The notes under the pieces: model-generated | What the model was told of the DNA's origin: nothing | Databases searched by the model: none | Seen by the model: only the letters and a program-made list of their open reading frames with translations | Program-made: the position numbers and the translations under genes | In this document: piece after piece, positions 17,174 through 48,995 of the stretch | Numbering within the stretch: the first letter of the stretch is position 1 | Layout: each line of letters starts with the position of its first letter | Virus record (IMG/VR): IMGVR_UViG_3300022752_000102 | Location: 1-52,489 of that record | Direction: 5' to 3' (one strand) | DNA length: 52,489 nucleotides | DNA from: a virus

Positions 17174-17314
17174 ATTAAAAGCTCTGGGATGCCGCCAGGG
17201 AATAGTTTTGAAAAGTGGTAAGAGCGAATAGCTCCGAGTGGAGTTAACGCTACTGCCGCAAATCATAACATCCCTTGCGCGAGCGGGGGATGGATGAAAG
17301 GATAACTAACTAAA
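17174..17314 (+). promoter_or_regulatory. structured leader of the capsid gene
   Basis: A gene-free stretch. It has short possible hairpins: CTCC/GGAG near 17230-17245 and CATCCC/GGGATG near 17268-17293. An AAAGGATAAC ribosome binding region lies before the ATG at 17315. No known riboswitch was recognised. Confidence 0.4.
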
Positions 17315-18721: not shown

Positions 18722-18743
18722 TTGAAGAAAGGAGACCATTACC

Positions 18744-22678: not shown

Positions 22679-22680
22679 TT

Positions 22681-22854: not shown

Positions 22855-23653
22855 AAATTGCCATTATTGGGTTGAGCACAAAAGAGCTGAATGTGGGCTA
22901 CCAGCAGAGCAATCCGTCAATATCGCCGGAGTTGAGTCGTTCCTACTTTGCAAAAAACATTATGATTTTATGTCGGAGAAAATAGATCTTGATACTTTTG
23001 ATAGGACTATTGCCCCAAAAGTTATAAGTTTGGGGGCCTCCTGTTATCCATTTATGCGAATGAAAAATTTATTTTCCACGGAACGGTATTTATTTGATTC
23101 CTGTAGATGCAGCCATCAAGTATTATTAACAATGCTTAAATCAAAATTTAGAAATATTCTTAATCCCATCCCGGCAATTCCAAATCAAAATGCGGTACGG
23201 ATAGGGTTTTATGATGAGTACAGTGATTTTTGGGTTGGACATAGGAAACGGGAGCAAATGCCAGATATTGATGCAACTATACGAAGAAGAGCGAAAAGAT
23301 TTTTAGATCTTGTTTCCTCAAACGAGCACATTGTTTTTATAAGGCTACGAAATTATTACTTTGACCCATCAACGTTTCTGGAACCATGTAGTTCAGATGA
23401 AATAGTTAGTATGTTTGAAACGGAGTATGACCAAATTGTTTTAACTCTAAAAGAATTAGGATTTAAGAATTTTGAAGTTTTTTATATCATAAGTTCACCA
23501 ATACTTACTTTAGATGGATTTATTACCATTCCAGAAGGACCTATTTCAGAGTCAATGTACTGTTTGGAGGATCCGGAAAGTTTTAGTAATAAAAATTGGA
23601 AGGGTTGTTTTGATTTTTTAAACTCAATTTATAGTTTTCCAACTAAAGGTTGA
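22847..23653 (+). CDS. DUF1796-like putative cysteine peptidase with N-terminal zinc finger
   Basis: A 268-residue protein. Residues 1-40 form a possible Cys/His zinc site. From about residue 58 the sequence VISLGASCYPFMRMKN, then ERYLFDSC, matches the DUF1796 pattern of papain-like-fold proteins that often occur in surface polysaccharide loci. IVFIRLRNYYFDP and a C-terminal FYIISSP region continue that domain. It closes the AT-rich glycan island. Peptidase activity is unproven; a role in glycan transfer is also possible. Confidence 0.55.
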   Translation: MSENCHYWVEHKRAECGLPAEQSVNIAGVESFLLCKKHYDFMSEKIDLDTFDRTIAPKVISLGASCYPFMRMKNLFSTERYLFDSCRCSHQVLLTMLKSKFRNILNPIPAIPNQNAVRIGFYDEYSDFWVGHRKREQMPDIDATIRRRAKRFLDLVSSNEHIVFIRLRNYYFDPSTFLEPCSSDEIVSMFETEYDQIVLTLKELGFKNFEVFYIISSPILTLDGFITIPEGPISESMYCLEDPESFSNKNWKGCFDFLNSIYSFPTKG

Positions 23654-23684: not shown

Positions 23685-24077
23685 ATGAAGTTTAAAGTTT
23701 TATTGTTCTTAACAATACCCATATTATTTGTCTCGTGCGCTTCTACACGGACAACTTCATCGGGTTCTTTGACACTTCAGGCCACCACCGAGTCCGTCTT
23801 GAAGGCTCAGGCTATCGCTCGTTCCATTCCGGCCTGTAAGCCCGTAGCCGATGAGCTCGACAACACCAAGGATCAAATCCTCAAACTCCAATCCCAAGTT
23901 GACCAAAACTTTAAAGAGCGTTCAGAGATGGCCGCAAGGCTTGAATATCTTGAGGGAAAATACAGCAAGGCCGTCGGGTTGCTCTGGAAATGGCGTTTGA
24001 TCGGGATTGGGGGTATGCTGCTTTTACCTGCATTTTTGGCCTTGCGTAATTTCTTCCCATTTCTTAAACTATTATAA
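23685..24077 (+). CDS. unimolecular spanin (lipoprotein plus C-terminal anchor)
   Basis: A 130-residue protein. The signal peptide ends in the lipobox-like FVSC with Cys18, predicting attachment to the outer membrane. A periplasmic region follows that is predicted to contain a coiled coil (LDNTKDQILKLQSQVDQNF, then RSEMAARLEYLEGKY). A C-terminal transmembrane segment (about 103-125, LIGIGGMLLLPAFLAL) would sit in the inner membrane. Both anchors in one chain, and the length, match u-spanins such as T1 gp11, which fuse inner and outer membranes at lysis. This implies a Gram-negative-type envelope. Confidence 0.75.
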   Translation: MKFKVLLFLTIPILFVSCASTRTTSSGSLTLQATTESVLKAQAIARSIPACKPVADELDNTKDQILKLQSQVDQNFKERSEMAARLEYLEGKYSKAVGLLWKWRLIGIGGMLLLPAFLALRNFFPFLKLL

Positions 24078-24419
24078 GTGAAAAAGTGGCTTTGGGATAA
24101 CGCCCAGGGACTTACAGCTCTCCTTTGCGGGATTGGGCTATTCCTGGCTCTTGGCCCGTTGCTCCATAAAATTGACCCCGGAGCCGGTGTGGTGGATTTG
24201 GGAGCGCTCCATGTGATCATCTTTGGTGCCGTCAAACTGCTAGCCGCCGTATCCCTGGCCTGGGGAATCATCGCTATTGAGTTTAAGTTTCTCAACGACT
24301 ACGTCGACTCCAAAACGCTTTTGGAGGACTGGTCAAATATCAGCGCTGAAGCCAGGGCCAAAATCCTTGTCGGTGTATTCCTTGGCCTGGTTCTGGCTTT
24401 TGCCCTTTTATGCGGGTGA
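24078..24419 (+). CDS. multi-span membrane protein, holin candidate
   Basis: A 113-residue protein starting with GTG immediately after the spanin stop. It has about three membrane segments (about 12-28, 45-66 and 95-111) and a charged loop near 70-92. Its position between spanin and hydrolase suggests a holin, though no family signature was recognised. Confidence 0.55.
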   Translation: MKKWLWDNAQGLTALLCGIGLFLALGPLLHKIDPGAGVVDLGALHVIIFGAVKLLAAVSLAWGIIAIEFKFLNDYVDSKTLLEDWSNISAEARAKILVGVFLGLVLAFALLCG

Positions 24420-24952
24420 TTTATGGCCTGGTTTTGGCGACTTTATTTGGGTTGGGTACCGGAGCCAGAGCTACTGAGGGAGTCCCGCAGACGCGAGAAG
24501 GAAGAGTTGAGGAAGTTATTCGAGTGGCTCGAGGAACCATTGGATGGCGAGAAGGACCTGGAAACTCCGGGCCCCTGGTGGACAAAATTTTAGCTTCAGT
24601 TGGGCTTGAAGGTACAAGGGCTCCATGGTGTGCGGCATGGGTGGTATATGTAGGCGATGAAGCGTTTGGCAAAGAAAAGAACCCCTACCCGCGTTCTGCT
24701 TGGAGTCCCGATTTCGTTAAAGCTCCGGAGTGGAACAGGGGCCGTGGAAAGAGGCCAGGCCCGTCCGACGCCTTTGGGATTTATTTTCCGAGTCTTGGCC
24801 GCGTGGCTCACACGGGTTTGGTGGAAAAGCTAGAGGGCAAGATGGTAGTTACTATTGAGGGTAACACCAATGACGACGGAAGTCGGGAGGGGGATGGGGT
24901 CTATCGCAAGCGCCGGTCCCTTGATACAATGCTTGCCAAGAGGTGGTTATGA
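24410..24952 (+). CDS. exported CHAP-like peptidoglycan hydrolase
   Basis: A 180-residue protein with an N-terminal signal peptide (MRVIYGLVLATLFGLGTGARA). The domain has Cys74 in APWCAAWV, His134 in RVAHTGLV and Glu150/Asn152 in TIEGNTN, the catalytic order of CHAP amidase/endopeptidases. GWREGPGNSGP before the Cys is common in this family. The signal suggests export through the host Sec system. It overlaps the membrane protein gene by ten bases. Together with the GH24 enzyme at 48103 the phage has two wall-cleaving enzymes. Confidence 0.75.
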   Translation: MRVIYGLVLATLFGLGTGARATEGVPQTREGRVEEVIRVARGTIGWREGPGNSGPLVDKILASVGLEGTRAPWCAAWVVYVGDEAFGKEKNPYPRSAWSPDFVKAPEWNRGRGKRPGPSDAFGIYFPSLGRVAHTGLVEKLEGKMVVTIEGNTNDDGSREGDGVYRKRRSLDTMLAKRWL

Positions 24953-32664: not shown

Positions 32665-33654
32665 ATGGCTGGATATTCATCTTCTTCGGGATCGTCCTAT
32701 TCAGGACCTGGAGCTTATACGGACCCGATTACAGGCACTCGGAGTGAAGTAAGAAATTACGAACAAAGAATGCGAGATTTTTTAACCAAAGGTTCTTTGG
32801 GTTACGGCGAATTGCCCAGGGCTCCCGGTGAAAATTGGAATGCTTGGATGCGCCGCCAACAATCGCTTGCAGATACTTATACGGGTCCCGGACTTAAAAC
32901 TGGATCCGCAGCCCTTACTCAATACCTCAAACCAAGCAGCGATGTCAGCAGTCGTCCAGCCACTGCCGGAAGAATGCCGAGCGGGGGTGGTGGCGGTGGT
33001 GGGATCGCTTACAAACCCCCAACGACCGTGGAGTTTTACATGGGTAAATTACCCGAACTTCAAAAGTTGGAAATCCCGTGGCAGGAGTTAGGCAAACGTG
33101 TTCAGGAGACCAATGCCCCGACGATCGCCGAGTATCAAAAAGCGGCACCCGGGGAAGAAGCCACTTTGCGTAGCCTTTCAATGGCGAATGCGGATATGGC
33201 CGCCGGAAAAATTCCGCTGTCGTTTTTGCAGGCCTCCCAAAGAGCCTCTGCACAGGCCGGTTACGGAACCGGACTTGGTGTGGGTGGACGTGCGGGTGGA
33301 ATTCAAAGAATGCGCGGAGAGCGGGATATTTTACTGACGTCCCTTAATCTCCAGCAAAGAGCCGCGCAAATGGCCGCGGCTATTCCGCAGATCATGCAAG
33401 GCAGGTATGCGGCCCAGTATCAGATTTCACCGACCGAGATATTTGGCACCGCAGCGAACCAGGCTTCGATTAACCAGCAACTCGCCAACCAGCAATTGCT
33501 GATGAACTGGATGAATCAACCGCGGCCCGGTATGTACGACGTCTCGAAAGGAATGTATGTGGGTGCCCAACCGGGAACCTACAGCGCCACCCCAACAAAT
33601 CTTCCGGGAGTTGGATCGTACTTCGCCGGATCACCTTATAATCCTTTTGTTTAA
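32665..33654 (+). CDS. internal virion or tail protein
   Basis: A 329-residue protein starting four bases after the adaptor stop. The N-terminus is Ser/Gly/Tyr-rich, there is a run of glycines near 107-114, and a middle helical region (FLQASQRASAQAGYGTG, LNLQQRAAQMAAAIPQIM) rich in Gln and Ala. Genes in this position in podoviruses encode small internal core proteins. Function unassigned. Confidence 0.55.
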   Translation: MAGYSSSSGSSYSGPGAYTDPITGTRSEVRNYEQRMRDFLTKGSLGYGELPRAPGENWNAWMRRQQSLADTYTGPGLKTGSAALTQYLKPSSDVSSRPATAGRMPSGGGGGGGIAYKPPTTVEFYMGKLPELQKLEIPWQELGKRVQETNAPTIAEYQKAAPGEEATLRSLSMANADMAAGKIPLSFLQASQRASAQAGYGTGLGVGGRAGGIQRMRGERDILLTSLNLQQRAAQMAAAIPQIMQGRYAAQYQISPTEIFGTAANQASINQQLANQQLLMNWMNQPRPGMYDVSKGMYVGAQPGTYSATPTNLPGVGSYFAGSPYNPFV

Positions 33655-33657
33655 TTT

Positions 33658-35322
33658 ATGGCCCTTAGCCCCAACGCCCCCGATTACGTAAGCCAGGTCA
33701 GAGGATTCCTCAGCGACCTGAGACAGGATGCCCGTCAGCGCGACCAGCTTGCCTTGGAGGCCGCGAGGTCATCTGCGGCCAACGCCCTGAACTATGCCCA
33801 GCTCGCCCAACAAAGGGAGTTGGCGTATCTCCAAGCCGATCTGAATCGTGAGCAGTATCAACAGGCATACGATCAAAAGAAGTTGGCTTACGAGAATGAC
33901 GCCCTTAAAAATGCCATCCAGACAATGGATAAGCAGAAGACGCAAGAATTGGCTGAACGCAGGTTTCAGTTCGATGTAATAAAGGAAGCCGAAGAGCAGA
34001 AACGGCTTGAAGAAAAAGACCGCAAGGAGAGGATCGAACAAACTGAAAGCCGTTTTGCGCTTCAAAAGTTGGGTGACATTATGGCAACCGGAGATTTGAA
34101 CGGTTTTGACAAATGGGTCAGTGGGATGAGTCAAATGGCGTTTTCTTATGCTGATTTGGGAAATATTTATTCTCAAGGTCTGAATTTGTGGAATAGCGCT
34201 GACAACGCCCGTAAGGAAAAGCTGACAACCGAAAACATGCCTACTTATATTTCCTTGACCGACGAAAGCTCAAAACTAGGGGCACAGCTTCCCTTTATGA
34301 CCTCCCAGCAACGATTGGCGGCTATAGGCGATTGGGAAAAACGATCCGCTGATTTTAAAGTTAGGGTGGGAAATCCTCAGATGACGAGCTCCCTTGATCT
34401 CATTGCTAAAGGTTTAAGGGATAAATCGGAGGTTGTTTCCAAAGATACAAAAACACAATCCTTGGCCACTTTTACCCAATTTGGGAAAGCAAAGGCTATC
34501 GCAGAAGTTAGTCCCGAACTTCAAAAAGAATTTGATACACTTTATACGGGAACCTCCTCTGAGCAGAAATTGAGCGAGGATTATCAGTCCAAACTGGATC
34601 TGGTTCGTTTGGCGTACAATAAAGAAAAGTCCAAGCGCATTCTTGCGGAAGAGGCCGCAAGATTGCGTCAATACGAGGAGATTCAGGTGGGGCGTGAAGG
34701 ACTTTACACCACCGATGAACAAGGATTTAGAAAGCCAAAGTTACAGGCTCCCGATCTTAGCCCATCTCTTGGCAGCGGCAATTTGGACGAGAACAATGAA
34801 ATAACGGAGCTTGCCAAAGACAAAATCAAAAATTATGAGAGCCGTCTTGGTCAGCAAGGAATATTGTTAGAGAAACTATCTCCAGAACAGGCAGTGGTAA
34901 AAATGATGGAGGACCTCGAAAGAATAAGAAGGGGAGAAAAAATCGCCACTCCAGAATCAAAACCCACGGTACAAGTGGATACGTCCAAAGTGCGGTATGG
35001 AAACACATGGGCTTTCCCGACCGCCGTGGCTCCTCAAGCCACGACCGCCGCCGCTCCGACGGCACCCCAGGTACAGCCTGCGGCCCCGGCCCAACCGTCA
35101 GCCAATCTGGGAAATCTTGAGGCCAATAAAGCCTTGTTCGCCGAGGTTCAGAAACAGATCGCCGGCGGGAAGAAGTTCTTTGAGGTCACCGATCCAAAAA
35201 CAGGAGAAGTAAGGGTAACCACCTACCCCTTATCCACGTTGTTCGCAAACTTGCCGGCGCTCATCCGGGAGCAGGAAAAGACGTTGGTGACGACACCGAC
35301 CGCTCCGGAAGATCGTCGTTGA
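33658..35322 (+). CDS. internal virion protein, coiled-coil
   Basis: A 554-residue protein. Residues about 10-140 are a long Gln/Glu/Arg/Ala helix (for example REQYQQAYDQKKLAYENDAL) predicted to form an extended coiled coil. A helical middle follows, then an Ala/Pro/Thr-rich linker (about 460-485) and a short C-terminal beta domain. This resembles the core proteins ejected with DNA by podoviruses. It directly precedes the giant gene, its likely partner. Confidence 0.6.
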   Translation: MALSPNAPDYVSQVRGFLSDLRQDARQRDQLALEAARSSAANALNYAQLAQQRELAYLQADLNREQYQQAYDQKKLAYENDALKNAIQTMDKQKTQELAERRFQFDVIKEAEEQKRLEEKDRKERIEQTESRFALQKLGDIMATGDLNGFDKWVSGMSQMAFSYADLGNIYSQGLNLWNSADNARKEKLTTENMPTYISLTDESSKLGAQLPFMTSQQRLAAIGDWEKRSADFKVRVGNPQMTSSLDLIAKGLRDKSEVVSKDTKTQSLATFTQFGKAKAIAEVSPELQKEFDTLYTGTSSEQKLSEDYQSKLDLVRLAYNKEKSKRILAEEAARLRQYEEIQVGREGLYTTDEQGFRKPKLQAPDLSPSLGSGNLDENNEITELAKDKIKNYESRLGQQGILLEKLSPEQAVVKMMEDLERIRRGEKIATPESKPTVQVDTSKVRYGNTWAFPTAVAPQATTAAAPTAPQVQPAAPAQPSANLGNLEANKALFAEVQKQIAGGKKFFEVTDPKTGEVRVTTYPLSTLFANLPALIREQEKTLVTTPTAPEDRR

Positions 35323-35357: not shown

Positions 35358-38300
35358 ATGGCTGATACTCCAATCAATCCGGAAGAGCAGGATCAGCAAC
35401 AAACCCAGCCAAATCCGGTAGCCCCCGCAGTTCCGGTTACCGAACCGCAACCCGCGGTTCCTTTCTCCCTTGAGGACCAGGCCAAGGCAATCATGGAGAA
35501 CCTGCCTCCCTCGATTGATTTGGAGGCCCAGGCAAAGGCCGTTTACGATATTCCTTCGCCTTACGAAGGTTTTGCATCGGAAGTCATCAAGGTGGCCGAA
35601 GATCCGGTTGGACGGGGTATTCTGTCCAACCTCAAACACGCGATTGAGTCCGGTGAACTTAAAGAACATTATGGAAAAGCCTATGACTATTTTCTTACCG
35701 GACCTGATTTGCAGGATCCGATGGATAAAGCAATGGAGGCAAAAAAGAATGGAGATGCCCTTGGGTTTACCAAAGGCTTTTTGGGTTTTCTTGCCAATTT
35801 AACAGGCAACTACTTTAATCTGGCGGTTGGAAGGTCCAAAGAGGATTCCAAAGCCGCTGCTCTGTCAAACGAAGCCGACACATTGATCGGGAAGATCCGC
35901 GACCCCAAAGTCGCTTCCAGGGCAATTGAACTTGGAGAGATGTATCTGTCTAAGTTGGACAATGGACAGTCCATTATTTCAAAAGATCAAGAACCCAAGT
36001 TTATCGTCAAGGCGGACTCGCGTGGTGGAGCTGGCCCGGAACCGAGTATTTCCGGATACAACTTTGGGATGAATCTTGCCGAGGCGGAAAAATATTTAAA
36101 GCAACTCGAAGAGGATCAAAATGCCACGTTAAGTTCCAGCGCCCTTAGAGTTTTTGCCACGACGGGTGTCGACGCGTTGCCGTTCGTTACTGCGGGCAAC
36201 ATCTATATTGACGACGAAACCGATCCTGAACAGGTGGCGAAACGGCGCGCCCTGACGCACAAAATCAACGAGGTCATAAGAAACAAATATTACGGGCCTA
36301 GTGTCGCGGGATCGGTTGCCGGTAGTCTAGGAGGTTTTGTGGGGGCCGGAAAGTTGGCAACCAAACTTATTGGAACTCCAGCGGTTGTTGGCGGAAGATC
36401 AATCCAGATCCCGAACAGTTTTTCCAGGTGGGGGACTTATGCGATTTACGGAGGAGGCGAAGCCCTCGAAGACACCCGTGATCTTCCGTGGTCTGATCGT
36501 CTTTTGGATGTGGCAGAGAATATTGTTAAGATTGGTGTGTCTGAGCGGATTGGAGAAGCGGGCGGTACGTATGTGGAAAGACTTGCCTCGACAAAACTCG
36601 CCCATACCGGATTGACCGCCTCCATTCCCGGGCTTACCCCGGTGACGCGAAATGCCGCGTTTCTTACGGGCGGCATTACCAGCGAAACAATCTCAAACCA
36701 GATCGATCGCGTTTTGGCCGGTCAAGCTCCGTTACCCGGACTTGGAGAAGACGCGGCCACGGCGTCCGGAGCGGTGTTCGGAATGTATCTGATTGGAAAA
36801 GGGGCCAATCTTTTCACCAAACCAGGAATTGAGACAAGAATTTTTGACCAGGCCAAGAGACAGTTTTCCGATGGCTTCGGTCAGTTTATCGATAGGATCA
36901 ACGAAAGCACCGACCTGACTTACAATCAAAAAAGAAAGTTGATTTCGGACACCTTAAAAAATCTCCCCACGCAGGAGTTAAAAGATTTGTTTACCGCCAA
37001 AATGGCGGAGCGTGCCGCCGCCAAAAACGCGGATGTTGCCCCCCAAACTCTGAAAGTTGCCCAGGAGATTGTTGAAAAGACCGAAGGTCCGGCCCTGGTT
37101 TCAATCTTGAAGGTTGAAGCGGACAAGCAAGAAAAAGAAGCAAAAGCGAAGAAAGAGGGGGTTTCCGTCACCAAAGAAGCCGCCAAGATTGAAGCTCCTG
37201 CTCTTACCCAGGAGGAACTGGAGGTTCGCGCCGAAAGTTTTGGCGACTGGATTTATTCAACCTTAATAGATTTACCACAGGGGACGGAACTAACCATTTC
37301 AAGAACCCCACAAAATGAACCGCTTCTGTCCATTTTGGAAAAACGTGGGATTATTTATGGGGAGAAAGACACTGAAAATTTCATTGTCAAGGCCGCTTAC
37401 GACAAAACCAAAACCAAATTGGCCGGACCCAAGGATTTTGCACCGGATCTGAAAGCCGAGAACGCCGTTGAGTCAGGCCGCGCCTTATTGGAGGATATAC
37501 AAAAATTAAAGCCGATGGATCCCAATGAGGTTGACCGTATTGAGGCATCCTTTGATGAGGCCACCAGCGAAAGTGAAGTCAATCAGATCATAAAACAATT
37601 CGCCTCAATCGAGGATTCGCACAACAAACAAAATGATGAGATTTTGGCCACGTTCAAGGAGCCCAAGAAAGTTGCCACGATTCAGTCACAGATCAGGGCA
37701 CTAAACAAACAGATTACCCAGCTTGAACGGGATGTCTTGACCGTACCAACTGCCCAGAAAGCCCAGACGGAAAAACAGCTGGAAGACCTCAAATTAAAAC
37801 GTGATGGACTGGTCAATGAGCGCGAGAATATTGAGGGCCTGGGAATGCGGGCTGTTCAGCTGAAGATTGAGGACAGCATTGATGCTTTGATAGAGCAGAA
37901 AAAGATTACCAAAGAAGAAGCCGATCTTATTCCCGAAAACATCACATTGCACATCAACAATCCGAAATCCGGGTCATATCAAAGGTATCAACTGGCTTTG
38001 GCTGATCCCGAACGGGTAAAACTCCTCACCGATCCCCAGCAAACTTTGGCAATTTTTGGGGCAAAAAACAAGTTAAAGAAATATGAACTTGCTGATCTTG
38101 GTGCAATTAACGAGGTTGGAGAAGTCCTTCAGACTCCGCAGGAAGTGATTGAATCTTTCCTGGAAGGAAAGAAACGATGGCTTACGGGCGAGGATTTCAA
38201 GGGTTATCCCAATCTTTATGATGTGGTTTACAATGGCGTAAAAGACGAGCTTCAGCTGGAAGTTCTTGAGGGGAAAACAAATCTCAACATGAATCTTGTT

Positions 38301-41300
38301 TTCTTCCGAAGGCTTTATAGCGCCATTCGGATGTACAAAGTCCGCAAGGCGCGCAATATGGGGATTGATTTTGCCAGTAGTTTAGATTCTGAGACGGAAG
38401 GACCCAAAGTCGAGGCTGAAGCCGCCGGGGTTTTGACGGAGCAAAAGGCCGGACCAGCAGCTTTGGTTGGTCAGGCCGAGGAAAAGTTTGACGAGGAAGA
38501 CAAGGCTTTTGCCGATAAAATTTCCCGCGAGAGGCGCGAAGGCTTCATTAAGCAGCTTTCCGATCCAAAATGGGGCGATCAGAACAATAAGATTATTTTT
38601 GAAGAACTCGTTTTTCCGGCTGAGACCGGGACGATTATGACCAGGGAGGATCGTGCGGCAAAGATTTCCGACATTTCCGCCAGGACCAAATTGAGTGTCC
38701 CAGAAATTTTGACCAAGGAAAACTTCCTGAGAAACGAATTTGTTTCTTTCCTTAAAGCCGACGTGCAGGTTCACGAGGCACAAAAGGAAGTAAGACGTTC
38801 ACTAACAAGAAGAGAACCCCCACGCCGTACTACGGAAATGTCTGAACAAGACAAGGAAATAGTGAGCGTTCTCGAACAGTTCAGGGCCATTCAGAAGCAA
38901 ATGGAGAGAGAGAATTACTTTTTGGTAAGAGATATTAAGAATCCCGATGGATCGATACGGCATGTGGACGAATCAGCGATAATCGAAAAACTGTCTGACC
39001 AGGCTCGAAACTCCAGGTCCCAGGATGATTTGCTAAAGTACGTGTCGTATCTAAACGATATCCGGAAACGTACCCTGACCCCCGAGAATCTTAATCCGTG
39101 GCTTCAGGGAATCGAGGAAACTTACGACAGTACTGCCGGACAAACTCCGGAAGCTTTAAGGTCTGACTTCAGAAACCAGATCGATCAGGCCAAGGAAAAC
39201 TATCTGGAGTCACAGCAATCTTCGGATGAGGCAATCCGTTTGGAAGGAGCCGCTAGGTTCCGAAGCAGGATAATCGAACTAGGAAATGAACTCGTAAGGA
39301 GCACAGGAAGATATGAAATCACAAAATCAGGAGAATATAGACTCAAGGGAGGAACTGGGACTTCAACCGCAGGTGGTGGACCTGGCCTTGCTCGAGCTGC
39401 TATCGAGCAAGCTCGTGCCAAACTTAACGCCGGGGCTACTGCCGAAAGACGCGGACTTCGCAGGGTAAAGGATAGTCCCGGTAATATATCTGAACCCCTC
39501 AAGGGAAGACGTTACCGTAAAGACCCCACGTTATCCGAGGAAGAAGTCGAGAGCGGAAATTTTGGAACCCCAATTGCAAAAAGAGTTGTGGCGTTGCCCG
39601 AGCAAGTGGCATCCATTGTGCCCGAAGCAACCATGGAGAAGTTGAAAAAAGCCACTAAACCAATTGTCTGGAAAGCTCTTAATGAAGATCAACGTAAAAC
39701 GTTTGCCAGAATAATGCTGGCGCTAAACACGAAAAACGGCTCTCATTACCTCGGGGATTCGGCCGGTCTTGGCAAAACACGCCCTATTTTGGCTGTGGCC
39801 GATTATTCTGCTTCGCAAAATTCACCGGTGGTCATTCTTACCGATTCGTCCGCTTTGACGCCAGATTGGCGTAAAAATGATCCAGGAGGATCTTTGGGGA
39901 AAGATGCAAAAGAAATGGGGATTAAACTGGATTTTCGTGGTGTAGCCGAGCGTCCTCTCCCCGACAAACTTGCTCCGGGCGAGATTTTGTTGACAACTTT
40001 TCAGTACATCGATCAGTTGAAAGAAAAGGGATTGGTTACCCCGCAAACAGTTTTATTGATCGACGAAGCCCACAAACTCAATGGAAACGGGGTATGGGCG
40101 GAAACCGGTGCGAGTTTGATGCAGACGGCAAAAAAAGTTTTGCTGGCTTCCGGAACACCATTTGAAACATTTGAGCAGATGACCAGGGCTTTTCGCCGGC
40201 TGGGAATATTCGGGGAAGGTGGGATTGCGGAAGATAATCTTGAAAAAGTTTTGGGGTTCAAAACTTATCGCACTCGTGGTGGAAGAGGAGAGGAAACTCT
40301 TCGCGCCAAGCCGGATAAAAAACTTTTAAGTGTGATGTTGGAGAAAGACATCGTCAAACTTGAGAGGCAAAGGGTTGAAGCGAAAAACCTGATTGCAAAG
40401 CTTCGGACACAGAAAGACTTTTCTGTTGCCAATATGACGGCGGCGGTAAATTCCCTTTCCGCCGTTGATGGAGTTCTTGGGGTCACCGAAGAAGACCAGC
40501 AAAGAAGGATCCGCGGATTTTTGGGTCAACTTGCCAAAGCAAATCTCTATTCAGCTTCCTCCATGTCTTTGGAGGGAGTAACGATTGATCAGGTATTTTT
40601 GCCACTGGACGAGGAGATAAAAAGAAAACTTGGAGTTTTAAATGCCCAGGGGGGCGGATCGGCCAATACCGACGGCAAAAGAAAAGAAGCTCTGGAGATG
40701 GCGCACCGGTACGCCTTGGAGCTTTATAAAGTACCGACAGCTGTGGATCTGACTTTCAAGGCCTTGGGGCGTGGGGAAAAGATAATCGTGTTTGTCGAGC
40801 AAGTAAAACAACCAAAGAGCACAACCGGAATTTTGGACAAACCGAGCGCTATCGTATTTGAGGAAATGCTTAGGGTGGAAGCCGCCAAACGTGGAATACC
40901 GGTCGAAATCGCCAAGATGTATGACCCCAAAATTTCCGGGCAAAAAAAGAAAGATGCTCTCAGAAGTTTCCAGGGGGGTAACGCAAATGTTCTTATTGCC
41001 ACCAAGGAAACCGCCGGAACCGGCGGAGAACTTGATGATAAGTTTGGTCCGGAAAAAGGCGGTAAGCCCAGATACGTTATCTTTTTGGCCAACCCTTTCT
41101 CGGCCATCCAGTTTATCCAGGCTGTTGGGAGAACGTGGAGGCGGTTAACTGCCAGCTATCCGAAAGCCGTTTTGCTTACCACTAATGCGGCGGCTGACCG
41201 CATAGTCGCAGATTTACGTACCACCAAGGACATTCTTCTCGGGGCGACGCTCAACACCAACATCTCCGAGCTTGGAAAAGCCGAGTCGCTGGAGCCGCAA

Positions 41301-44300
41301 CCCGAGGCCAAACCGTCCGAAGAAATTGTTCTCGAAGGTGAGCTTCCGGAAACCAAAGGAATCGTGCGCGCAAGAAGTGCCCGACAAAAAGTAAAGCCCG
41401 CCAAGAAGACGGACCAAAAGGCGATTCAGGACTTTATGACCCGCTTGCGTTCCTGGGTCGACATGAATCTTACGGATACCGCACGTAATCCGACCAAGGA
41501 AGTTATTGCAGCACTCAAAGGAAGACCTTCCGACATTCTTGAGGAAATAATCCAAAAAGACGGCCAAAAGGTTTTCGAAGCTTTTGGCACCAGAAGTTAT
41601 CCCGTAATCACCGACTTTATTGAAAAGTTAAGTCCGCAATTCAGTTTTGGTCGCTCTGCAAACGACATTATCCAGGAGTTCACGGAGTACGTCTACGAAA
41701 ACAAGCCAATCGCAAAAATTGCCGAAAAACCGGAATCCCCGGCTGTGGACGAAGATGCTTCCGACAAACACGAGGATAATTATATCCCGAAAGATCTGAC
41801 TAAAGAGCAGGAATTGCTGGTCAAAGAACTTGAGGACGAAGTCAAAAAAGTTTACAAATCAGACTACAAGAACGGGGTTCTTACTATTACCGATCGCAAA
41901 GGAAAGCAGTCCTTTAATGTTCAATTTGTCCTGGGGGCTGAGGCTACAGCTACCCCGGGATCATCGGACGACACGGATGTGATTACACTCGGAGTGAATT
42001 TTTTCAAAGAGGAAAAAAATACTCGCGGAAAGAAGTTTCAGGATTATTTAAAGAATGTCATCATGCATGAGGTTGTTCACGTCAAAACCTTCCGCGTGAT
42101 CAGGGACGAGCTTAAACGTGCCGGGAAAAAGGGTTCATTTGCCGATCTGATAAAATTCTTTGAGGATTTTTACGACAGTCTAGATCAAAACACGATTGAG
42201 AAGAGCGTTAAACTATATCATGCTCTTGCCGGACGTGGAGCGTACACCGGCAAGGAGCTTCAGGAACAGATGTCCCTGTTCGCCACCAATAAACTTCTCG
42301 TGTCGGCAGAATTGATGGCCCAGCTTCTTGGCATCAATGTTTTTGGAAAAACAACCGAACTGGCATTGGCCCCCAACCGAGCTGCTTACAACCGGGCTAA
42401 AGCCAGGCAAGATGCGCTGTTTGTCGAGGAAGCTCAAAAATCCCCAGTGCGGGAAAAGTTCAAGATGTTCTTCAACGCGGCAGAGACAGCCCTTGCTTCT
42501 TTAAGGGGTATCAGCAGCAAAGCGGCCTATGTTCCAGCCGATTTTGACAAAGAAATAAAAAATGCTTTGGATCAGCTTAACAACCGTGTCAGCGGTTATG
42601 CCGAGGCGGTTGAAGAAAAAGCCGAGGAAAGAAAAGAAATTTCCAAGCTGAGCCGCTACCACCTGGAGTTTGAAAACAATGTCGAAAAGATGCGTGACCT
42701 CGAATTCCGTGACGATCTTACACCGGAAGAGGAAGCAAAATACGACAAGCTAAAACGCCGCCAGTCGGATCTTCAGAGGTTGATTATCGAAGAAGAATCC
42801 AAGCCTTATGTGAATATCCCGCCGGAAGCAGGGAAGACCAATCCCTTTCCTTCGGAAGAGCCAAACCGTTTCAACTTCAGCACCCTTCGGGTTGCCCGAA
42901 TGATCGACCTGGCTGAGAACGGGCTTGTCTCTAAAATATTCAACACCGATGTCCAGCAGGATCTCTACGGGAAATTCCTGCCATGGGCGGAGTTTGCCGG
43001 AAGTATCAGAAACGTCGAAGCGTATAATATTCTCCACCCGACAGAAATATATTTAATGCGGTGGGCTCTGGATCAATACGCCAGCAAGAAGAACGTTATC
43101 TATCTGTCCGATCTTAAGCAGAGCGTTTTGGAAAGCGCCGAGGACATGGAGGAGATGAACAAGCTGCTCCCCGAGTCCATCTTTATACGAGACGACCAGG
43201 CTTTGCCCGAGGAGATCATGGAGAGGGCGCAGTTTGAATCATCCGAAGATCGTGAAAAGCCAACTGATCTTTACTATGTCAGGGTATCCAACCTTCCGGC
43301 GGAGTCTGTCTGGGGCAAGTCCAACAAGCACGCGACAGCCAGGCTCGTGTTCCGTATCCTTGGGCGCGGGCAAACAATCTACTATGAGGGCAAGGCCTAT
43401 TCGACCCGCTCGGCTGGACCCGCACTGATAAAGGTTCTGGAGGCGCAAGACCCGACCTTCAAGATTTTTGCCAAGAAAAAACCGTATTTGAGTGCCCCGC
43501 CGATTGAAGAACCCGAAATGGTTATAAGTCAGGGCGGTGCCAACTGGCTGGCCCGCGTGCTTGATGTGATCCCCAACGAGGAAATACGCAACAGGTTGGA
43601 GGCCAATCTTACCTACAAGAAGCTGACTAACGAGGAAACAAAACAAAGGGCCCTTGATTACATCAACGAAGTATCCAAGCGTCCCGACGGATTTAACAAG
43701 CTGGTCAGACAGTTCCTCAACGACACTTTCCCCCGCCGCACTCCTTTGGTCATACGCACGGCTATTGGTTTCCAGATTGCCAATCTTTTGGCCCAAAGGG
43801 CATCCGACGGAGACGCCAATGCCCAGGAACTTATGGCTCAGGTCTCCATGGTGTTGCAGGACCGTCACATGATCGATCCGGGCCGCGCCATCCAGTATCT
43901 TTGGCAGGGCCCGGATCTTGCCGCCGATGCTTTGGCTTTCACCAAGGTTCTGGAATCCCAGATTGAGGCTGCGGCCAAATTGCGGATGGAGCCTTATATT
44001 CCGTATTTGGAACAGACGACCGAGGAGATTGCCAAAGCCGATCTTGAAGCCGGTGATGCGTTTGCCAGCTCACCGCAGGTCCAGGACATTGTTTCGCAGA
44101 TTCAAAGATTCGAAAAGCTCAAACAAAATGCCGCCGAGGAACTTGCCCAGCTCAACTCCGAAATGGCCAACATGGTCATGGCATCGGAAAGCCGGTTTGC
44201 CGATATCTTCTCGGATGTGATTTCCCCGGTGGGCCTACCTCCTTCCAATACGACTGGCGGGGACAATCTTGGGTTCGATGACGTCATCGTCAATAAACTG

Positions 44301-47300
44301 GCGAACTATATGGTGGAGTTTGTTTCCAAGTCTTACGCAGAAGCCAACGATATTCTTGAGCCTGAAAAACTAAAGAAGATGTTGCTTTTAAGTCCGTTCT
44401 TCACGACCGCCAAAAACCCAGAAGCCAGGCTGAGGGTGTTTTACCATCATTTCTTGCCCGCTTATAATATGGCGCTTCCCAGGATTTTGGAGGCCGTCAA
44501 GGATGATTATAACATTACCCAGAAGGAACTGGAAGAAGCCAAAGCCAAGGTTGGCGAAATGAAGACACGTGGTCGCGCAAAAATTATTGCCGACGACTTT
44601 GAAAACATTGTGACAAAGAAGAGAAAGAAAGCTCCGATCAGGCAGGCCCCCAGAACCCTGAAGGATCTTGTTGCCCCGACAGCAAAAGAAATCATTAAGG
44701 AAACCAGTAATATTAAAGATCCGGCCATCCGGATTAAACTCAAGGAGATAGCAAGGTATATCAAAAGCCAGGCAATTATTGGACCGCTCAAGGAAAAAGG
44801 AATTCTTACCCCAAGGAAAACTGAAGGAACCCCGACAGCCGCACAAAAGTTACTCGAGTTTTATGAAATGTTTGAGGAAGGAACGGAGTTTATTGCTGAC
44901 GTTCGCCTATACATAAGCAACACAGCGAAAGAAAGTGAAAAAGCTATTTTAAGCGAATTTCTGGATAAAATTTTAGAGAAGCTTACGACCGTTTCCACAT
45001 TCTCGCGTGTCGTCACTTCTTTGGAGAGCATCGGCGGGACGAACAAGACCATCCAAAGGTTGATCCGAGATCCAAAAGAAAGCATAACCGAGTTCAAAAA
45101 AGAACTCCAGAGACTTTTCATTGACGGTACCACAATGCCGGAAAATCTTCGCCAGCAGGCGGCTGACTATCTGTCCAAGAGTCTTGAGGACATGGTTGCG
45201 GCCAAACGGAAAGAGGCGTTGACCAAACTGAAGGAACGTCTGGCAAAGACCGCGGAAAGAAAAACCAGAAAGGTTCGCTCCGCCATCGACAAGCTGATGG
45301 ATGCGGCCAACCTAGGACTGCTTACCGATCCGGAAATTTTCCAACAGATTCACATGAAACTTGGTCTCCCTGAATTTGGAGACAAGGAAAGAGCCAGGGT
45401 TAATGAAATGATTCTCAATCTGTCCAAGTACCCGGAAGGCCGGCTTCGTAATGCCAAGATCAGCGAAATTAATGACTACATAAAGACAGTTGCTCCGATC
45501 ACTTTTTCCAAGATAGCGCCGTCTTACCAGACGGCTAACCTTTTGAACGCAATTGGGTCCCTTGGAATTAACGCAACTTCGGCTATCAATGGAGTTGCTG
45601 TGGAAGGGCTACAGGCTTATGGCCTGGCTACCGCAAAACAAACTTTGGGAGGAAAGGAACAAAAACTCCAGGCACTTGGAATTAAAAAGGGAATCGAAGC
45701 CCTGCAAAATGCTTGGTTTTCGGAAAAAGGACTGGCTAGAAAAGCGGCGTCAGAAGTATGGAAACTTGGAAGATTCCCGACGGATTCGGCGGTGATGAAG
45801 GAATTTGGACAATTCAATATATTCGAGGCAATGCTTAAAGAAAAACAGGCTGCGGAGGCTGGGAAACGTGGCGATCAGGTGGCGGAACTTAAGGTAAAAC
45901 TTCCCTTTGGTGTCTCTCCCATAGCATCATTTCTCTCCAGACTCATCCCGCAGTTTGTCAAAAAATCCGGACCAGTTCAGGCGTTGTCAGAGGTTATAAG
46001 CAAAGAGGGTCGTGAACTTAAAATTAATCTTCAGGCAGAGTGGAAGCCCGAGCTTAAGTTTTTGCCGGAAAGATTAAAACAACCTGTTTTTGATATTGTC
46101 ACAAAATTGTTCCCCACAAAACTGATCGATACACCCTTGGCCCTGCGTCAACTTCCTTTCATGGAAAAAATGATGGAAGCCGGTTCCCCATATCTGAAAC
46201 TGATCACCAAAGTACCCATTGTTGGAAAATATCTTGGGAGGTTTGGTGGAATAGCGGACGTTCCTATTTATCCTTATAACTCAGCTTTAGGTTCTTATGT
46301 ATTATCGTCCAGGTTAATGGCGGCTTCCGATACGTTTATTAAGTTTGGAGCGAGGGACCTTGGAAGGGTGGTGGAGACTGCTTACCTTCTGGCCAAGGAG
46401 AATCCCGATGCAACAGAAGAGGAGTTCCTTGATCAAATGGCAATCAGGTTGAACCGCACTTCCGACAGTATCGAACGTGCCATGAAACTTGCCATGTCGG
46501 AAGCCAAGCAATTTGCTGAAAACGGGGAGATTGTTATGACCCCGGAAGATATCCTTTTGAGGGCTGATGAAATTTTGGATCAAAATATGCCCAAAGATGA
46601 GTTCACCAAACAGGTTATTGAACGAGCCAACGTGTACGCGCAAAGACTGTCCTTCCAGCAGGATTATGAAGGATACATAGGATTTATTGCCGGAAGTCTG
46701 GATGCGGTGGCAAAGCATTTCTGGGTATCCGCATCAATTCTAAAATTCTTAAGGACCAGCTCCGCGTTGGCAAATGAATTTTTAAATTACGCACCAGGTG
46801 TTTCTTTTTTAAGGTATTTCCGTGGAATGGGCGGTTTATTGGCACACACGGAAGCTACCAAACGCTTTTACCGTCCTCCGGCCATGCCTAACTCTTACCA
46901 AAGGGACATGCTCCGATCAAAGATGATCATAGGTCATTCCATGTATGGATTGATTATCGGATTGATTTGGTCTGCTCTTAACGACGACAAGGAGAATCCA
47001 TGGTTTTTTGTGCATTTCAAGGGCCCGAAAGATCCGGCCCAAAGGAAGGCGTTTTTCTCCGCTGGCGGGACATTGAAGTCCATGCAGATCGGTAAGTTTG
47101 GCGAACCCCTTATGATTGGCGGAGTCAAGGTAGCCGAGGGCCCTGTGTTCATCGCCTGGGAATCTTTATTCCCTGGAGCAACTGGATTCCTCATGCCGGT
47201 GGCCGCAACGGGAGAGGCTGTTAGATATGAAAAAAGATCCTTTGCGGAAGCCGCTCCATCTATTCTGGCCACCGCCGGACTTACTACCGGATTGGGAATT

Positions 47301-48074
47301 ATCGATATGGCAGTTCTCACTGGAGCGAGAAATTTGTTGCAGTTGGTGTCTCCTTCTTCGACCGCACAGGATACAATACGGAATTTTGCAACCCTGACCG
47401 GACAGCTCGCCGCCTCCTATGTTCCTTTCTACCCCAAACTTCGCGACTACGATGCTCTTTATGACGGGCTGATGGGACAGCCCCGGGCCAAGCTTTATAA
47501 AGATGGCTTTGCTTCTTACTTCCTATCCAGCTTCCCCATTGTCTCCAGGTTCGGGGATCAGGATCTCGACTTCCTCGGAGGCCAGGTATCCACTGATGTG
47601 ATCAATACCGTACCCCTAGTCAAACGTTTCTTCAAACTTGGTGTATCCGGATCCGAGTATGATCGGGCAGCCATACCAACTGATCAACAAATCCACGACA
47701 AACTCATCTCCCTTTTCGCAAAACACGGGCGCAGAATCAACTGGGATGCCGGATCCCTTAATGATATTGCCCAAATAGAAATGGCTCAACAGGCGGCACA
47801 GGGGATCCCCGTGGACAAATCCGTCTATGAAATCCTTGCCTTGACCCGCGATTTGACGGAGGATGAAAAATACGAGTGGGTAAAGCTTGCCGGTCCTCTC
47901 ATCCAGGCCGATCTTTCCAGGCTAATCCCGAACCTAGAAGCAGCCGAGGATGCCGCCGAGTTTGATTTCATCCTGGATAAGATGTCGAATGTAAGTGCGA
48001 TCAAACGAAACGTGTTGAGGGCGATACTGATCCGCAAATTCTCCGAGGGAATTATGCGGGACGAGTTGCCTTGA
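35358..48074 (+). CDS. giant multidomain virion protein with SF2 helicase and HExxH motif
   Basis: A single uninterrupted frame of 4238 residues, about a quarter of the window. Visible parts in order: an N-terminus with repeated QAKA helices (30-60); Gly-rich hydrophobic segments (about 314-348 and 432-490); coiled coils (about 530-640 and 765-830); a strawberry-notch-like SF2 helicase (about 1440-1990; Lys1473 in GLGKT, DEAH 1569-1572, QAVGRTWR with Gln1921 and Arg1925); an HEVVH zinc-protease motif (2237-2241); long charged helices; and a C-terminal region with a hydrophobic helix near 3861-3875. Giant polyvalent proteins of this kind are thought to be packed in the virion and injected with the DNA. 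No RNA polymerase motifs were found. Confidence 0.85.
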   Translation: MADTPINPEEQDQQQTQPNPVAPAVPVTEPQPAVPFSLEDQAKAIMENLPPSIDLEAQAKAVYDIPSPYEGFASEVIKVAEDPVGRGILSNLKHAIESGELKEHYGKAYDYFLTGPDLQDPMDKAMEAKKNGDALGFTKGFLGFLANLTGNYFNLAVGRSKEDSKAAALSNEADTLIGKIRDPKVASRAIELGEMYLSKLDNGQSIISKDQEPKFIVKADSRGGAGPEPSISGYNFGMNLAEAEKYLKQLEEDQNATLSSSALRVFATTGVDALPFVTAGNIYIDDETDPEQVAKRRALTHKINEVIRNKYYGPSVAGSVAGSLGGFVGAGKLATKLIGTPAVVGGRSIQIPNSFSRWGTYAIYGGGEALEDTRDLPWSDRLLDVAENIVKIGVSERIGEAGGTYVERLASTKLAHTGLTASIPGLTPVTRNAAFLTGGITSETISNQIDRVLAGQAPLPGLGEDAATASGAVFGMYLIGKGANLFTKPGIETRIFDQAKRQFSDGFGQFIDRINESTDLTYNQKRKLISDTLKNLPTQELKDLFTAKMAERAAAKNADVAPQTLKVAQEIVEKTEGPALVSILKVEADKQEKEAKAKKEGVSVTKEAAKIEAPALTQEELEVRAESFGDWIYSTLIDLPQGTELTISRTPQNEPLLSILEKRGIIYGEKDTENFIVKAAYDKTKTKLAGPKDFAPDLKAENAVESGRALLEDIQKLKPMDPNEVDRIEASFDEATSESEVNQIIKQFASIEDSHNKQNDEILATFKEPKKVATIQSQIRALNKQITQLERDVLTVPTAQKAQTEKQLEDLKLKRDGLVNERENIEGLGMRAVQLKIEDSIDALIEQKKITKEEADLIPENITLHINNPKSGSYQRYQLALADPERVKLLTDPQQTLAIFGAKNKLKKYELADLGAINEVGEVLQTPQEVIESFLEGKKRWLTGEDFKGYPNLYDVVYNGVKDELQLEVLEGKTNLNMNLVFFRRLYSAIRMYKVRKARNMGIDFASSLDSETEGPKVEAEAAGVLTEQKAGPAALVGQAEEKFDEEDKAFADKISRERREGFIKQLSDPKWGDQNNKIIFEELVFPAETGTIMTREDRAAKISDISARTKLSVPEILTKENFLRNEFVSFLKADVQVHEAQKEVRRSLTRREPPRRTTEMSEQDKEIVSVLEQFRAIQKQMERENYFLVRDIKNPDGSIRHVDESAIIEKLSDQARNSRSQDDLLKYVSYLNDIRKRTLTPENLNPWLQGIEETYDSTAGQTPEALRSDFRNQIDQAKENYLESQQSSDEAIRLEGAARFRSRIIELGNELVRSTGRYEITKSGEYRLKGGTGTSTAGGGPGLARAAIEQARAKLNAGATAERRGLRRVKDSPGNISEPLKGRRYRKDPTLSEEEVESGNFGTPIAKRVVALPEQVASIVPEATMEKLKKATKPIVWKALNEDQRKTFARIMLALNTKNGSHYLGDSAGLGKTRPILAVADYSASQNSPVVILTDSSALTPDWRKNDPGGSLGKDAKEMGIKLDFRGVAERPLPDKLAPGEILLTTFQYIDQLKEKGLVTPQTVLLIDEAHKLNGNGVWAETGASLMQTAKKVLLASGTPFETFEQMTRAFRRLGIFGEGGIAEDNLEKVLGFKTYRTRGGRGEETLRAKPDKKLLSVMLEKDIVKLERQRVEAKNLIAKLRTQKDFSVANMTAAVNSLSAVDGVLGVTEEDQQRRIRGFLGQLAKANLYSASSMSLEGVTIDQVFLPLDEEIKRKLGVLNAQGGGSANTDGKRKEALEMAHRYALELYKVPTAVDLTFKALGRGEKIIVFVEQVKQPKSTTGILDKPSAIVFEEMLRVEAAKRGIPVEIAKMYDPKISGQKKKDALRSFQGGNANVLIATKETAGTGGELDDKFGPEKGGKPRYVIFLANPFSAIQFIQAVGRTWRRLTASYPKAVLLTTNAAADRIVADLRTTKDILLGATLNTNISELGKAESLEPQPEAKPSEEIVLEGELPETKGIVRARSARQKVKPAKKTDQKAIQDFMTRLRSWVDMNLTDTARNPTKEVIAALKGRPSDILEEIIQKDGQKVFEAFGTRSYPVITDFIEKLSPQFSFGRSANDIIQEFTEYVYENKPIAKIAEKPESPAVDEDASDKHEDNYIPKDLTKEQELLVKELEDEVKKVYKSDYKNGVLTITDRKGKQSFNVQFVLGAEATATPGSSDDTDVITLGVNFFKEEKNTRGKKFQDYLKNVIMHEVVHVKTFRVIRDELKRAGKKGSFADLIKFFEDFYDSLDQNTIEKSVKLYHALAGRGAYTGKELQEQMSLFATNKLLVSAELMAQLLGINVFGKTTELALAPNRAAYNRAKARQDALFVEEAQKSPVREKFKMFFNAAETALASLRGISSKAAYVPADFDKEIKNALDQLNNRVSGYAEAVEEKAEERKEISKLSRYHLEFENNVEKMRDLEFRDDLTPEEEAKYDKLKRRQSDLQRLIIEEESKPYVNIPPEAGKTNPFPSEEPNRFNFSTLRVARMIDLAENGLVSKIFNTDVQQDLYGKFLPWAEFAGSIRNVEAYNILHPTEIYLMRWALDQYASKKNVIYLSDLKQSVLESAEDMEEMNKLLPESIFIRDDQALPEEIMERAQFESSEDREKPTDLYYVRVSNLPAESVWGKSNKHATARLVFRILGRGQTIYYEGKAYSTRSAGPALIKVLEAQDPTFKIFAKKKPYLSAPPIEEPEMVISQGGANWLARVLDVIPNEEIRNRLEANLTYKKLTNEETKQRALDYINEVSKRPDGFNKLVRQFLNDTFPRRTPLVIRTAIGFQIANLLAQRASDGDANAQELMAQVSMVLQDRHMIDPGRAIQYLWQGPDLAADALAFTKVLESQIEAAAKLRMEPYIPYLEQTTEEIAKADLEAGDAFASSPQVQDIVSQIQRFEKLKQNAAEELAQLNSEMANMVMASESRFADIFSDVISPVGLPPSNTTGGDNLGFDDVIVNKLANYMVEFVSKSYAEANDILEPEKLKKMLLLSPFFTTAKNPEARLRVFYHHFLPAYNMALPRILEAVKDDYNITQKELEEAKAKVGEMKTRGRAKIIADDFENIVTKKRKKAPIRQAPRTLKDLVAPTAKEIIKETSNIKDPAIRIKLKEIARYIKSQAIIGPLKEKGILTPRKTEGTPTAAQKLLEFYEMFEEGTEFIADVRLYISNTAKESEKAILSEFLDKILEKLTTVSTFSRVVTSLESIGGTNKTIQRLIRDPKESITEFKKELQRLFIDGTTMPENLRQQAADYLSKSLEDMVAAKRKEALTKLKERLAKTAERKTRKVRSAIDKLMDAANLGLLTDPEIFQQIHMKLGLPEFGDKERARVNEMILNLSKYPEGRLRNAKISEINDYIKTVAPITFSKIAPSYQTANLLNAIGSLGINATSAINGVAVEGLQAYGLATAKQTLGGKEQKLQALGIKKGIEALQNAWFSEKGLARKAASEVWKLGRFPTDSAVMKEFGQFNIFEAMLKEKQAAEAGKRGDQVAELKVKLPFGVSPIASFLSRLIPQFVKKSGPVQALSEVISKEGRELKINLQAEWKPELKFLPERLKQPVFDIVTKLFPTKLIDTPLALRQLPFMEKMMEAGSPYLKLITKVPIVGKYLGRFGGIADVPIYPYNSALGSYVLSSRLMAASDTFIKFGARDLGRVVETAYLLAKENPDATEEEFLDQMAIRLNRTSDSIERAMKLAMSEAKQFAENGEIVMTPEDILLRADEILDQNMPKDEFTKQVIERANVYAQRLSFQQDYEGYIGFIAGSLDAVAKHFWVSASILKFLRTSSALANEFLNYAPGVSFLRYFRGMGGLLAHTEATKRFYRPPAMPNSYQRDMLRSKMIIGHSMYGLIIGLIWSALNDDKENPWFFVHFKGPKDPAQRKAFFSAGGTLKSMQIGKFGEPLMIGGVKVAEGPVFIAWESLFPGATGFLMPVAATGEAVRYEKRSFAEAAPSILATAGLTTGLGIIDMAVLTGARNLLQLVSPSSTAQDTIRNFATLTGQLAASYVPFYPKLRDYDALYDGLMGQPRAKLYKDGFASYFLSSFPIVSRFGDQDLDFLGGQVSTDVINTVPLVKRFFKLGVSGSEYDRAAIPTDQQIHDKLISLFAKHGRRINWDAGSLNDIAQIEMAQQAAQGIPVDKSVYEILALTRDLTEDEKYEWVKLAGPLIQADLSRLIPNLEAAEDAAEFDFILDKMSNVSAIKRNVLRAILIRKFSEGIMRDELP

Positions 48075-48102: not shown

Positions 48103-48702
48103 ATGCCAGACGCACCCAAACAAAAAATGACCTCGCAAGAGGCGTTTGATCTTCTCAAAAACTACGAGAAGTTCTCGCCAACCGTCTATCCCGACAAGGG
48201 CGGAGTAGCCACAATCGGTTATGGACTGACAAAGTATGAGTTTCCTGGTTTGACTTTGCAGAGCACAAACGTTTTGACAGAACCCCAAGCTGCCAAAATG
48301 CTTCAAGATAAATTGGAAAACAAATTTATTCCAAGGGTACAAGAACTTGTGTCAGTCCCCCTGACAACCAATCAACTCGGAGCCTTGGCTAGCTTCATGT
48401 ACAATGTGGGAGAGCCCAATTTCACATCCAGCACGCTTAGGAAAAAATTAAATGCCGGAGATTTTGAAGGCGCTCTCAAAGAGTTTCCAAGATGGAACAA
48501 GGTAAGAAATAAGGACACCGGAAAGCTTGAGCCAGCGGCAGGATTGACTGACAGGCGGCAGGCAGAGATGGCTTTGTTCAGCGGGGACATGCAGGAGCTT
48601 GGAAGAAAACTGGAGCTAAAGAAGTTTGGTCCTCCTGGCTACGCCGCGGGTTATATACCAAAGAAGGGTTCCGTTGTAAAATCTTCGGGAGGGTCCAGAT
48701 AA
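48103..48702 (+). CDS. GH24 lysozyme endolysin
   Basis: A 199-residue muramidase of the T4 lysozyme/RrrD family. The catalytic Glu22 (KNYEKFSPTVYP), Asp31 (PDKGG) and Thr37 (ATIGYG) are in family order, and NQLGALASFMYNVG and the C-terminal FPRWNK, GLTDRRQAE segments are conserved. It cleaves the glycan backbone of peptidoglycan. There is no signal peptide, so release depends on a holin. About 35 extra C-terminal residues (GPPGYAAGYIPKKGS) are basic and may bind wall or virion. It heads the mini-protein cassette. Confidence 0.92.
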   Translation: MPDAPKQKMTSQEAFDLLKNYEKFSPTVYPDKGGVATIGYGLTKYEFPGLTLQSTNVLTEPQAAKMLQDKLENKFIPRVQELVSVPLTTNQLGALASFMYNVGEPNFTSSTLRKKLNAGDFEGALKEFPRWNKVRNKDTGKLEPAAGLTDRRQAEMALFSGDMQELGRKLELKKFGPPGYAAGYIPKKGSVVKSSGGSR

Positions 48703-48995
48703 TGCCATTAGGAAAAGCCAGCATGCCTTGCAATCAACCCCGGGCCAGCACACGCCCGGGCAAAAAGAAAATGGTCAAAGCCTGCGAGGGCGGACAGGAA
48801 CGCCTCGTACACTTTGGGGCCAAAGGATACGGCCACAATTACTCGGCCGCGGCGCGCAAATCCTTCCGGGCCCGCCACAACTGCGCCAATCCGGGGAGCA
48901 AGCTAAGCGCCCGTTACTGGGCCTGCAAGCACTTATGGGCTGGCCCAGGCGGCTCTACCCAGTCAAGCCCGTCCAACCGGAAAGGGAAGTACTGA
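48702..48995 (+). CDS. basic mini-protein, MPLGK type
   Basis: A 97-residue, very basic protein beginning MPLGKASM, sharing one base with the endolysin stop. It contains KKMVKACEGGQERLVHFGAKGYGHN, ARKSFRARHNC and ARYWACKHLW, a conserved motif string of uncharacterised proteins in environmental phages. Five cysteines and several histidines suggest metal or nucleic acid binding. Role unknown. Confidence 0.75.
   Translation: MPLGKASMPCNQPRASTRPGKKKMVKACEGGQERLVHFGAKGYGHNYSAAARKSFRARHNCANPGSKLSARYWACKHLWAGPGGSTQSSPSNRKGKY

Follow-up and report, generated by a model that had tools for sequence, protein, structure and literature searches.

What does an uncultured virus do with a protein of 4,238 residues, and is the gene that would encode it real? 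The window, by which we mean the whole stretch of DNA analyzed here, corresponds to a linear virus record in IMG/VR, 52,489 bases long, in which an ATG at 35358 opens a frame that runs through 4,238 codons without an internal stop and ends at 48072–48074 (log10 probability of about −94, given the base composition of the window). Relatives were reached through the capsid protein, for which a viral scan returned 20 at 71–78% identity, and the start of the giant was matched in 13 of the 15 relative contigs searched. Ten further IMG/VR contigs of uncultured viruses carry the full frame in the corresponding position, where it encodes 3,737–4,544 residues that share 25–36% identity with the window giant over the full length and 33–52% over the C-terminal 594 residues. 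Because the same single frame is kept in these ten contigs, the giant is a real gene and not an assembly accident, and the 4,238-residue single-frame protein of the original prediction stands. Searches by tblastn with both halves of the giant against 50,697 phage records, and single-sequence viral scans with its helicase part and its C-terminal part, gave zero matches; profile searches of its parts against PDB sequences yielded nothing useful, and a scan of genome contigs for a host returned zero relatives. Within the searchable open-access subset of papers, we found no description of this family so far. The giant and the features around it are as follows.

23685–24952, plus strand: probable lysis cassette, comprising a lipoprotein-like protein, a holin-like transmembrane protein and a CHAP-type endolysin with a signal-like N-terminus (CHAP below the Pfam cut-off)
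32665–33654, plus strand: 329-residue partner, zero cysteine (10 homologues, 3,902 residues, 0 cysteines)
33658–35322, plus strand: 554-residue partner, zero cysteine (11 homologues, 5,857 residues, 0 cysteines)
35358–48074, plus strand: giant ejection-type protein, 4,238 residues, zero cysteine, homologues known
35805–37037, plus strand: conserved N-terminal region of the giant, residues 150–560, small-residue-rich and partly hydrophobic (from conservation)
39678–41252, plus strand: Swi2/Snf2–Strawberry-notch-type SF2 ATPase module, residues 1441–1965 (from Pfam, alignment and fold search)
41805–42377, plus strand: zincin-like domain, residues 2150–2340, with (H/E)ExxH at residues 2237–2241 (42066–42080) (from alignment, model topology and retention in the relative L051)
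45390–48032, plus strand: region of ∼850 residues homologous to internal virion protein D (T7 gp16 position), residues ∼3345–4225 (from hmmsearch, hhalign and PHROG 6651)
48103–48702, plus strand: Phage_lysozyme (PF00959) protein, zero cysteine, a probable virion lysozyme (from Pfam and slot exchange)

In both the window and its relatives, the genes run in the order 412-residue protein, 329-residue partner, 554-residue partner, and giant, the last being also the largest of the internal virion gene block, and in several contigs a peptidoglycan hydrolase gene then follows. This small–medium–giant–peptidoglycan hydrolase order is that of an ejection operon. The 329-residue partner is a candidate outer-membrane-pore protein, in the place of gp14 or N4 gp52, and the 554-residue partner is a candidate periplasmic-tunnel protein, in the place of gp15 or N4 gp51. 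Profile comparison of these upstream partners with those of T7, N4, P22, and SU10 gave marginal matches only; one of them, between the 554-residue family and N4 gp51, reached E 0.001 against a very small panel and was not used. The hydrolase slot is filled by Phage_lysozyme in the window and L036 and by Glucosaminidase in L029, L030, and L033. That unrelated wall hydrolases replace one another at this position suggests that they help to open the cell wall during entry. The original prediction had placed the giant between two internal virion proteins and the endolysin. The order holds, but the label does not: a separate cassette with a CHAP-type endolysin, probably the true lysis cassette of this phage, lies upstream, so the lysozyme after the giant is likelier to be a virion lysozyme. 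Beyond it, at 48702–48995, a 97-residue cysteine-rich basic protein, PHROG 220 ‘minor head protein and DNA pilot,’ is conserved beside the giant and is common to many other phages. The late block also holds DUF6734, galactosyltransferase-like, and DUF1796 papain-like genes (21045–23653).

The portal, tail, and capsid proteins of the window gave no profile match in a small podovirus protein panel, and TerL and the 412-residue protein matched only G016, a relative from the same clade; the label “short-tailed” as used here rests on the ejection-type genes and the relatives. Opposite the whole length of the capsid gene lies an antisense open frame of 479 residues (17306–18745, minus strand).

One property of the giant was overlooked in the original prediction. 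Specifically, its 4,238 residues include no cysteine, where 49 would be expected from the window genes upstream of 32665 (1.16% cysteine) and 29 from the other virion genes of the window. The eleven giant homologues, which are nonindependent samples, contain 3 cysteines in 44,010 residues. Across 12 giant genes, that is, the eleven homologues and an unrelated giant encoded by MW202828, TGY codons number 4 of 47,881 in frame, compared with 983 and 2,150 in the other two frames. As TGY is plentiful off frame, base composition does not explain why cysteine is absent, and a composition bias was ruled out on these counts. Both partner families are likewise free of cysteine (0 in 9,759 residues), as is the lysozyme gene product. 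The replication proteins of the window contain 1–2% cysteine (DNA polymerase, 11/596; the other helicase, 6/434). Proteins of T7, N4, P22, and SU10 whose ejection has experimental support contain 1 cysteine in 10,820 residues: T7 gp14 has one, and N4 gp50, gp51, and gp52, T7 gp15 and gp16, P22 gp7, gp16, and gp20, and SU10 gp20–24 have none. The absence is not exclusive to ejected proteins, as capsid and scaffold proteins can be cysteine-free too. Cysteine-free N4-like virion RNA polymerases (vRNAPs) have been described, and their composition has been tied to passage through the tail or periplasm (PMC3715699), an explanation also published in PMC5795418. We propose that the need to pass through the oxidizing periplasm in an unfolded state is what keeps cysteine out of the giant. 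As far as we found, this signature has been published for N4-like vRNAPs only; it extends to ejected proteins of T7, N4, P22, and SU10, and it could mark delivered proteins in uncultured short-tailed phages. By contrast with the cysteine-free ejection block, the late region of the relative G012 encodes a 223-residue protein with 41 cysteines (L086, 996–1667, minus strand).

The MW202828 giant (741–12320; L037) belongs to a Manatee Spring podovirus with a circular genome of 60.8 kb. It is a protein of 3,859 residues, annotated as a ‘reticulocyte binding/rhoptry protein,’ with one cysteine and two HExxH motifs, is preceded by two cysteine-free proteins, and is apparently an independent giant ejection protein.

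The C-terminal region ties the giant to annotated virion proteins. Used as a query, the C-terminal alignment reached L051, from a phage of the same clade (TerL match of 945 bits), whose giant of 2,677 residues has zero cysteine and lacks the ATPase motif but retains the zincin-like region and the C-terminus. Through L051, two further homologues were found, in AP013544 (Ayaqvirus S45C18, a T7-like phage) and in MW202801 (1,121 residues). The AP013544 homologue occupies the place of T7 gp16, following the genes for tail tubes A and B and two genes of gp14 and gp15 size. Both proteins match PHROG 6651 ‘internal virion protein’ as well as numerous pelagiphage, roseophage, and cyanophage proteins annotated as internal virion protein D. 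The C-terminal profile of the window family matches MW202801, AP013544, and Roseobacter phage CRP-804 with domain E-values of 1e-25, 1e-16, and 9e-9, respectively, and has weaker direct matches to ProddE (5e-5), HTVC011P (1e-4), and Syn5 gp45 (4e-3), while 0 of 378 decoys fell below E 0.1. When aligned by hhalign with six internal virion proteins D, it gave a probability of 99.8 over 591 columns, and PHROG 6651 is matched directly by 3 of 12 family members (best 1.3e-9). The strongest core of this homology lies at residues 3714–4000 (46497–47357). As judged by these profile comparisons, the C-terminal part of the giant and internal virion protein D of marine Autographiviridae are homologous. 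The relationship is detected with marine counterparts only, T7 gp16 itself giving no match to the C-terminal region; nor did the giant show significant homology to the N4 vRNAP, T7 gp16, or the MW202828 giant. The predicted hydrophobic segments are present near residues 3856 and 3968, and they recur in some relatives and are missing from others.

Further toward the N-terminus lies a helicase-like enzyme. The SF2 helicase-like domain of the window giant is recognized by Pfam (ResIII, E 9e-7), and across the 11 members the Strawberry-notch pair is found as AAA_34 in 8 and as Helicase_C_4 in 6; all 11 aligned sequences keep motifs I (GxGKT), II (DE), and VI (RxxR) unchanged. The two RecA-like lobes and motifs I, II, and VI are those of Swi2/Snf2 and Strawberry-notch SF2 ATPases. 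An AlphaFold2 model of residues 1410–2360 (mean pLDDT 69) is closest to the Swi2/Snf2 enzymes CSB, Chd1, Rad54, and RapA (E down to 5e-13). Such enzymes mostly translocate on duplex DNA without separating its strands (PMC5512222), so “translocase” fits better than the “helicase” first assigned; the SF2 domain was correctly seen and its type is now refined. Structure prediction by segment, proposed earlier as a check, thus placed this enzyme and gave less for the C-terminus, the model of which is poor (pLDDT 59), has no PDB match at E ≤ 0.001, and in BFVD resembles other ‘large polyvalent protein’ C-termini at a TM of 0.2, too low to be used as proof. Pfam and PHROG scans of the giant agree with the prediction that it holds no RNA polymerase domain, and PF00940, the T7-type RNA polymerase model, found nothing in the window and eleven relative records, some of which may be fragments, while the T7, N4, HTVC011P, and AP013544 controls were detected (the N4 vRNAP itself scores only 10 bits). 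This makes it less likely that a phage polymerase powers entry. The N-terminal region at residues 150–560 has no known domain and is possibly a membrane part.

Downstream of the ATPase, residues 2150–2340 are predicted to form a helix, strands, and then a helix that bears HEVVH. The zinc-protease motif reported earlier is thus present in the window giant, but protease activity is doubtful for most of the family, as just 3 of 12 homologues, those of the window, L027, and L028, have an intact HExxH. An active metalloprotease that processes the giant after delivery would be consistent with HEVVH in the window, with HEREH and HERDH in the two relatives, and with a predicted helix–sheet–helix–helix arrangement and an invariant later Glu like those of polyvalent metallopeptidases (PMC5512222). 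However, in 8 of the 11 homologues and in the divergent L051 the first His is replaced by Glu (EExxH), leaving ExxH and the later Glu as the elements invariant across the eleven, and there is neither a significant profile match to the zincin region of N4 nor a sequence match in the PDB. We consider such activity unlikely. A different kind of protease is encoded at 54–1043 (minus strand), an HtrA-like trypsin–PDZ protein (Trypsin_2, E 1e-23; PDZ_2) with a hydrophobic, signal-like N-terminus, which is unusual in a phage.

Collectively, the C-terminal homology to proteins in the gp16 position, the avoidance of cysteine shared with known ejected proteins, and the conserved three-gene block with its peptidoglycan hydrolase give good support to what had been a guess from position, that the giant is ejected with the DNA; on sequence grounds, it is very probably a virion and ejection protein. 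The length of the giant, its helical content, its hydrophobic segments, and the adjoining lysozyme gene would also suit a tail protein, such as the tape measure, of a phage with a long tail, but such a protein would hardly be expected to share its C-terminus with a T7-like internal virion protein D, to carry an ATPase in its middle, or to be free of cysteine; moreover, sheath or tube genes were not recognized, and the PHROG tape-measure match is to one member at E 0.17. This explanation is the least probable of those considered. Scarcely better placed is a role confined to infected cells, as a polyprotein or a replication protein: the helicase-like ATPase and protease-like motif speak for it, and the late position within the structural block, the homology to virion proteins, and the lack of cysteine, compared with 1–2% in phage replication proteins, speak against it.

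We favor a model in which the giant is probably a polyvalent ejection protein of the gp16/vRNAP type, with a double-stranded DNA translocase in place of the RNA polymerase of N4. As the third product of an ejection operon (329, 554, and 4,238 residues), followed by the virion lysozyme, it would be packed in the phage head, leave through the short tail as an unfolded chain together with both partners, and then refold. Its gp16-homologous C-terminal part would then anchor at the inner membrane and hold the entering DNA, while the Swi2/Snf2-type ATPase in its middle, now on the cytoplasmic side, would engage the double-stranded DNA as it arrives, to haul in the genome, strip it of proteins, or shield it. 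That the ATPase drives genome entry is doubtful, and a transcription-independent genome-reeling motor, made of an injected ATP-driven double-stranded DNA translocase fused to a gp16-type membrane hub, is an equally tentative proposal; the absence of the ATPase from L051, where the rest is kept, indicates that entry does not strictly need it. The same absence is compatible with an alternative to which we give nearly an even chance, and which opposes the motor and shares the ejection: that the ATPase serves protection or takeover, through DarB-like antirestriction or RapA/Strawberry-notch-like remodeling of host protein–DNA complexes. Polyvalent proteins repeatedly carry Swi2/Snf2 and Strawberry-notch ATPases, and DarB shields P1 DNA against type I restriction (PMC5512222), but the DNA methylase that typically accompanies these ATPases in such proteins was not found.

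Under the favored ejection model, the giant can be compared with three known systems. Like the internal virion proteins D of Autographiviridae (T7 gp16 type), with which it has the C-terminal region of PHROG 6651 in common, it stands last in the internal-virion gene block and is cysteine-free or nearly so. However, it is 3–5 times longer than the gp16-type proteins compared (about 780–1,420 residues) and adds the ATPase and the zincin-like domain. Pfam and PHROG found in it no built-in N-terminal transglycosylase, a trait of T7, and the peptidoglycan hydrolase is instead a separate, cysteine-free gene product; this transglycosylase is also missing from P22-like phages and so is not universal in the class (PMC8954989). 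With the vRNAPs of N4 and DEV (Schitoviridae gp50/gp71), the giant shares its place as the cysteine-free third gene of an ejection trio and its layout, an N-terminal region, an enzyme, an HExxH domain, and a large helical C-terminus. In contrast, its enzyme is a Swi2/Snf2-type ATPase and not an RNA polymerase, sequence homology is undetectable, and the HExxH domain has the same order and predicted topology as in N4 without a significant profile match. In DEV and N4 the small, medium, and giant proteins are the pore, the tunnel, and the cytoplasmic motor (PMC10925440, PMC12633501), a scheme that the window trio appears to fit, the two smaller proteins by size and place; the injected RNA polymerase of N4 does what, on the tentative motor reading, the injected ATPase would do here.

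Polyvalent proteins, including P1 DarB, likewise combine disparate catalytic-type domains in giant chains predicted to be delivered with the DNA, and both the Swi2/Snf2 ATPase and the zincin-like metallopeptidase count among the hub domains of these proteins (Iyer et al. 2017, PMC5512222); both types occur in the giant, the ATPase clearly and the zincin-like domain in a form degenerate in most relatives. A search for polyvalent-protein domains, the other computational check proposed originally, came back with the ATPase as the only clear hit: Pfam (E ≤ 0.01–1) found no ArdC-N, ART, DdrB-ParB, or LPD domain, which are common and not obligatory, and no DNA methylase, whereas in DarB an adenine methylase is fused to the ATPase. 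The giant differs further in being built on a gp16-type C-terminus and in having no cysteine, compared with nine in P1 DarB, whose source phage has a long contractile tail. What is new is a probable gp16-class, polyvalent ejection protein bearing a Swi2/Snf2-type ATPase, the kind itself being known. It joins two ideas that have so far been separate, gp16-type genome-entry proteins and Swi2/Snf2-bearing polyvalent proteins, and it offers a natural test of genome uptake without an injected polymerase, with the helicase-minus L051 as comparator.
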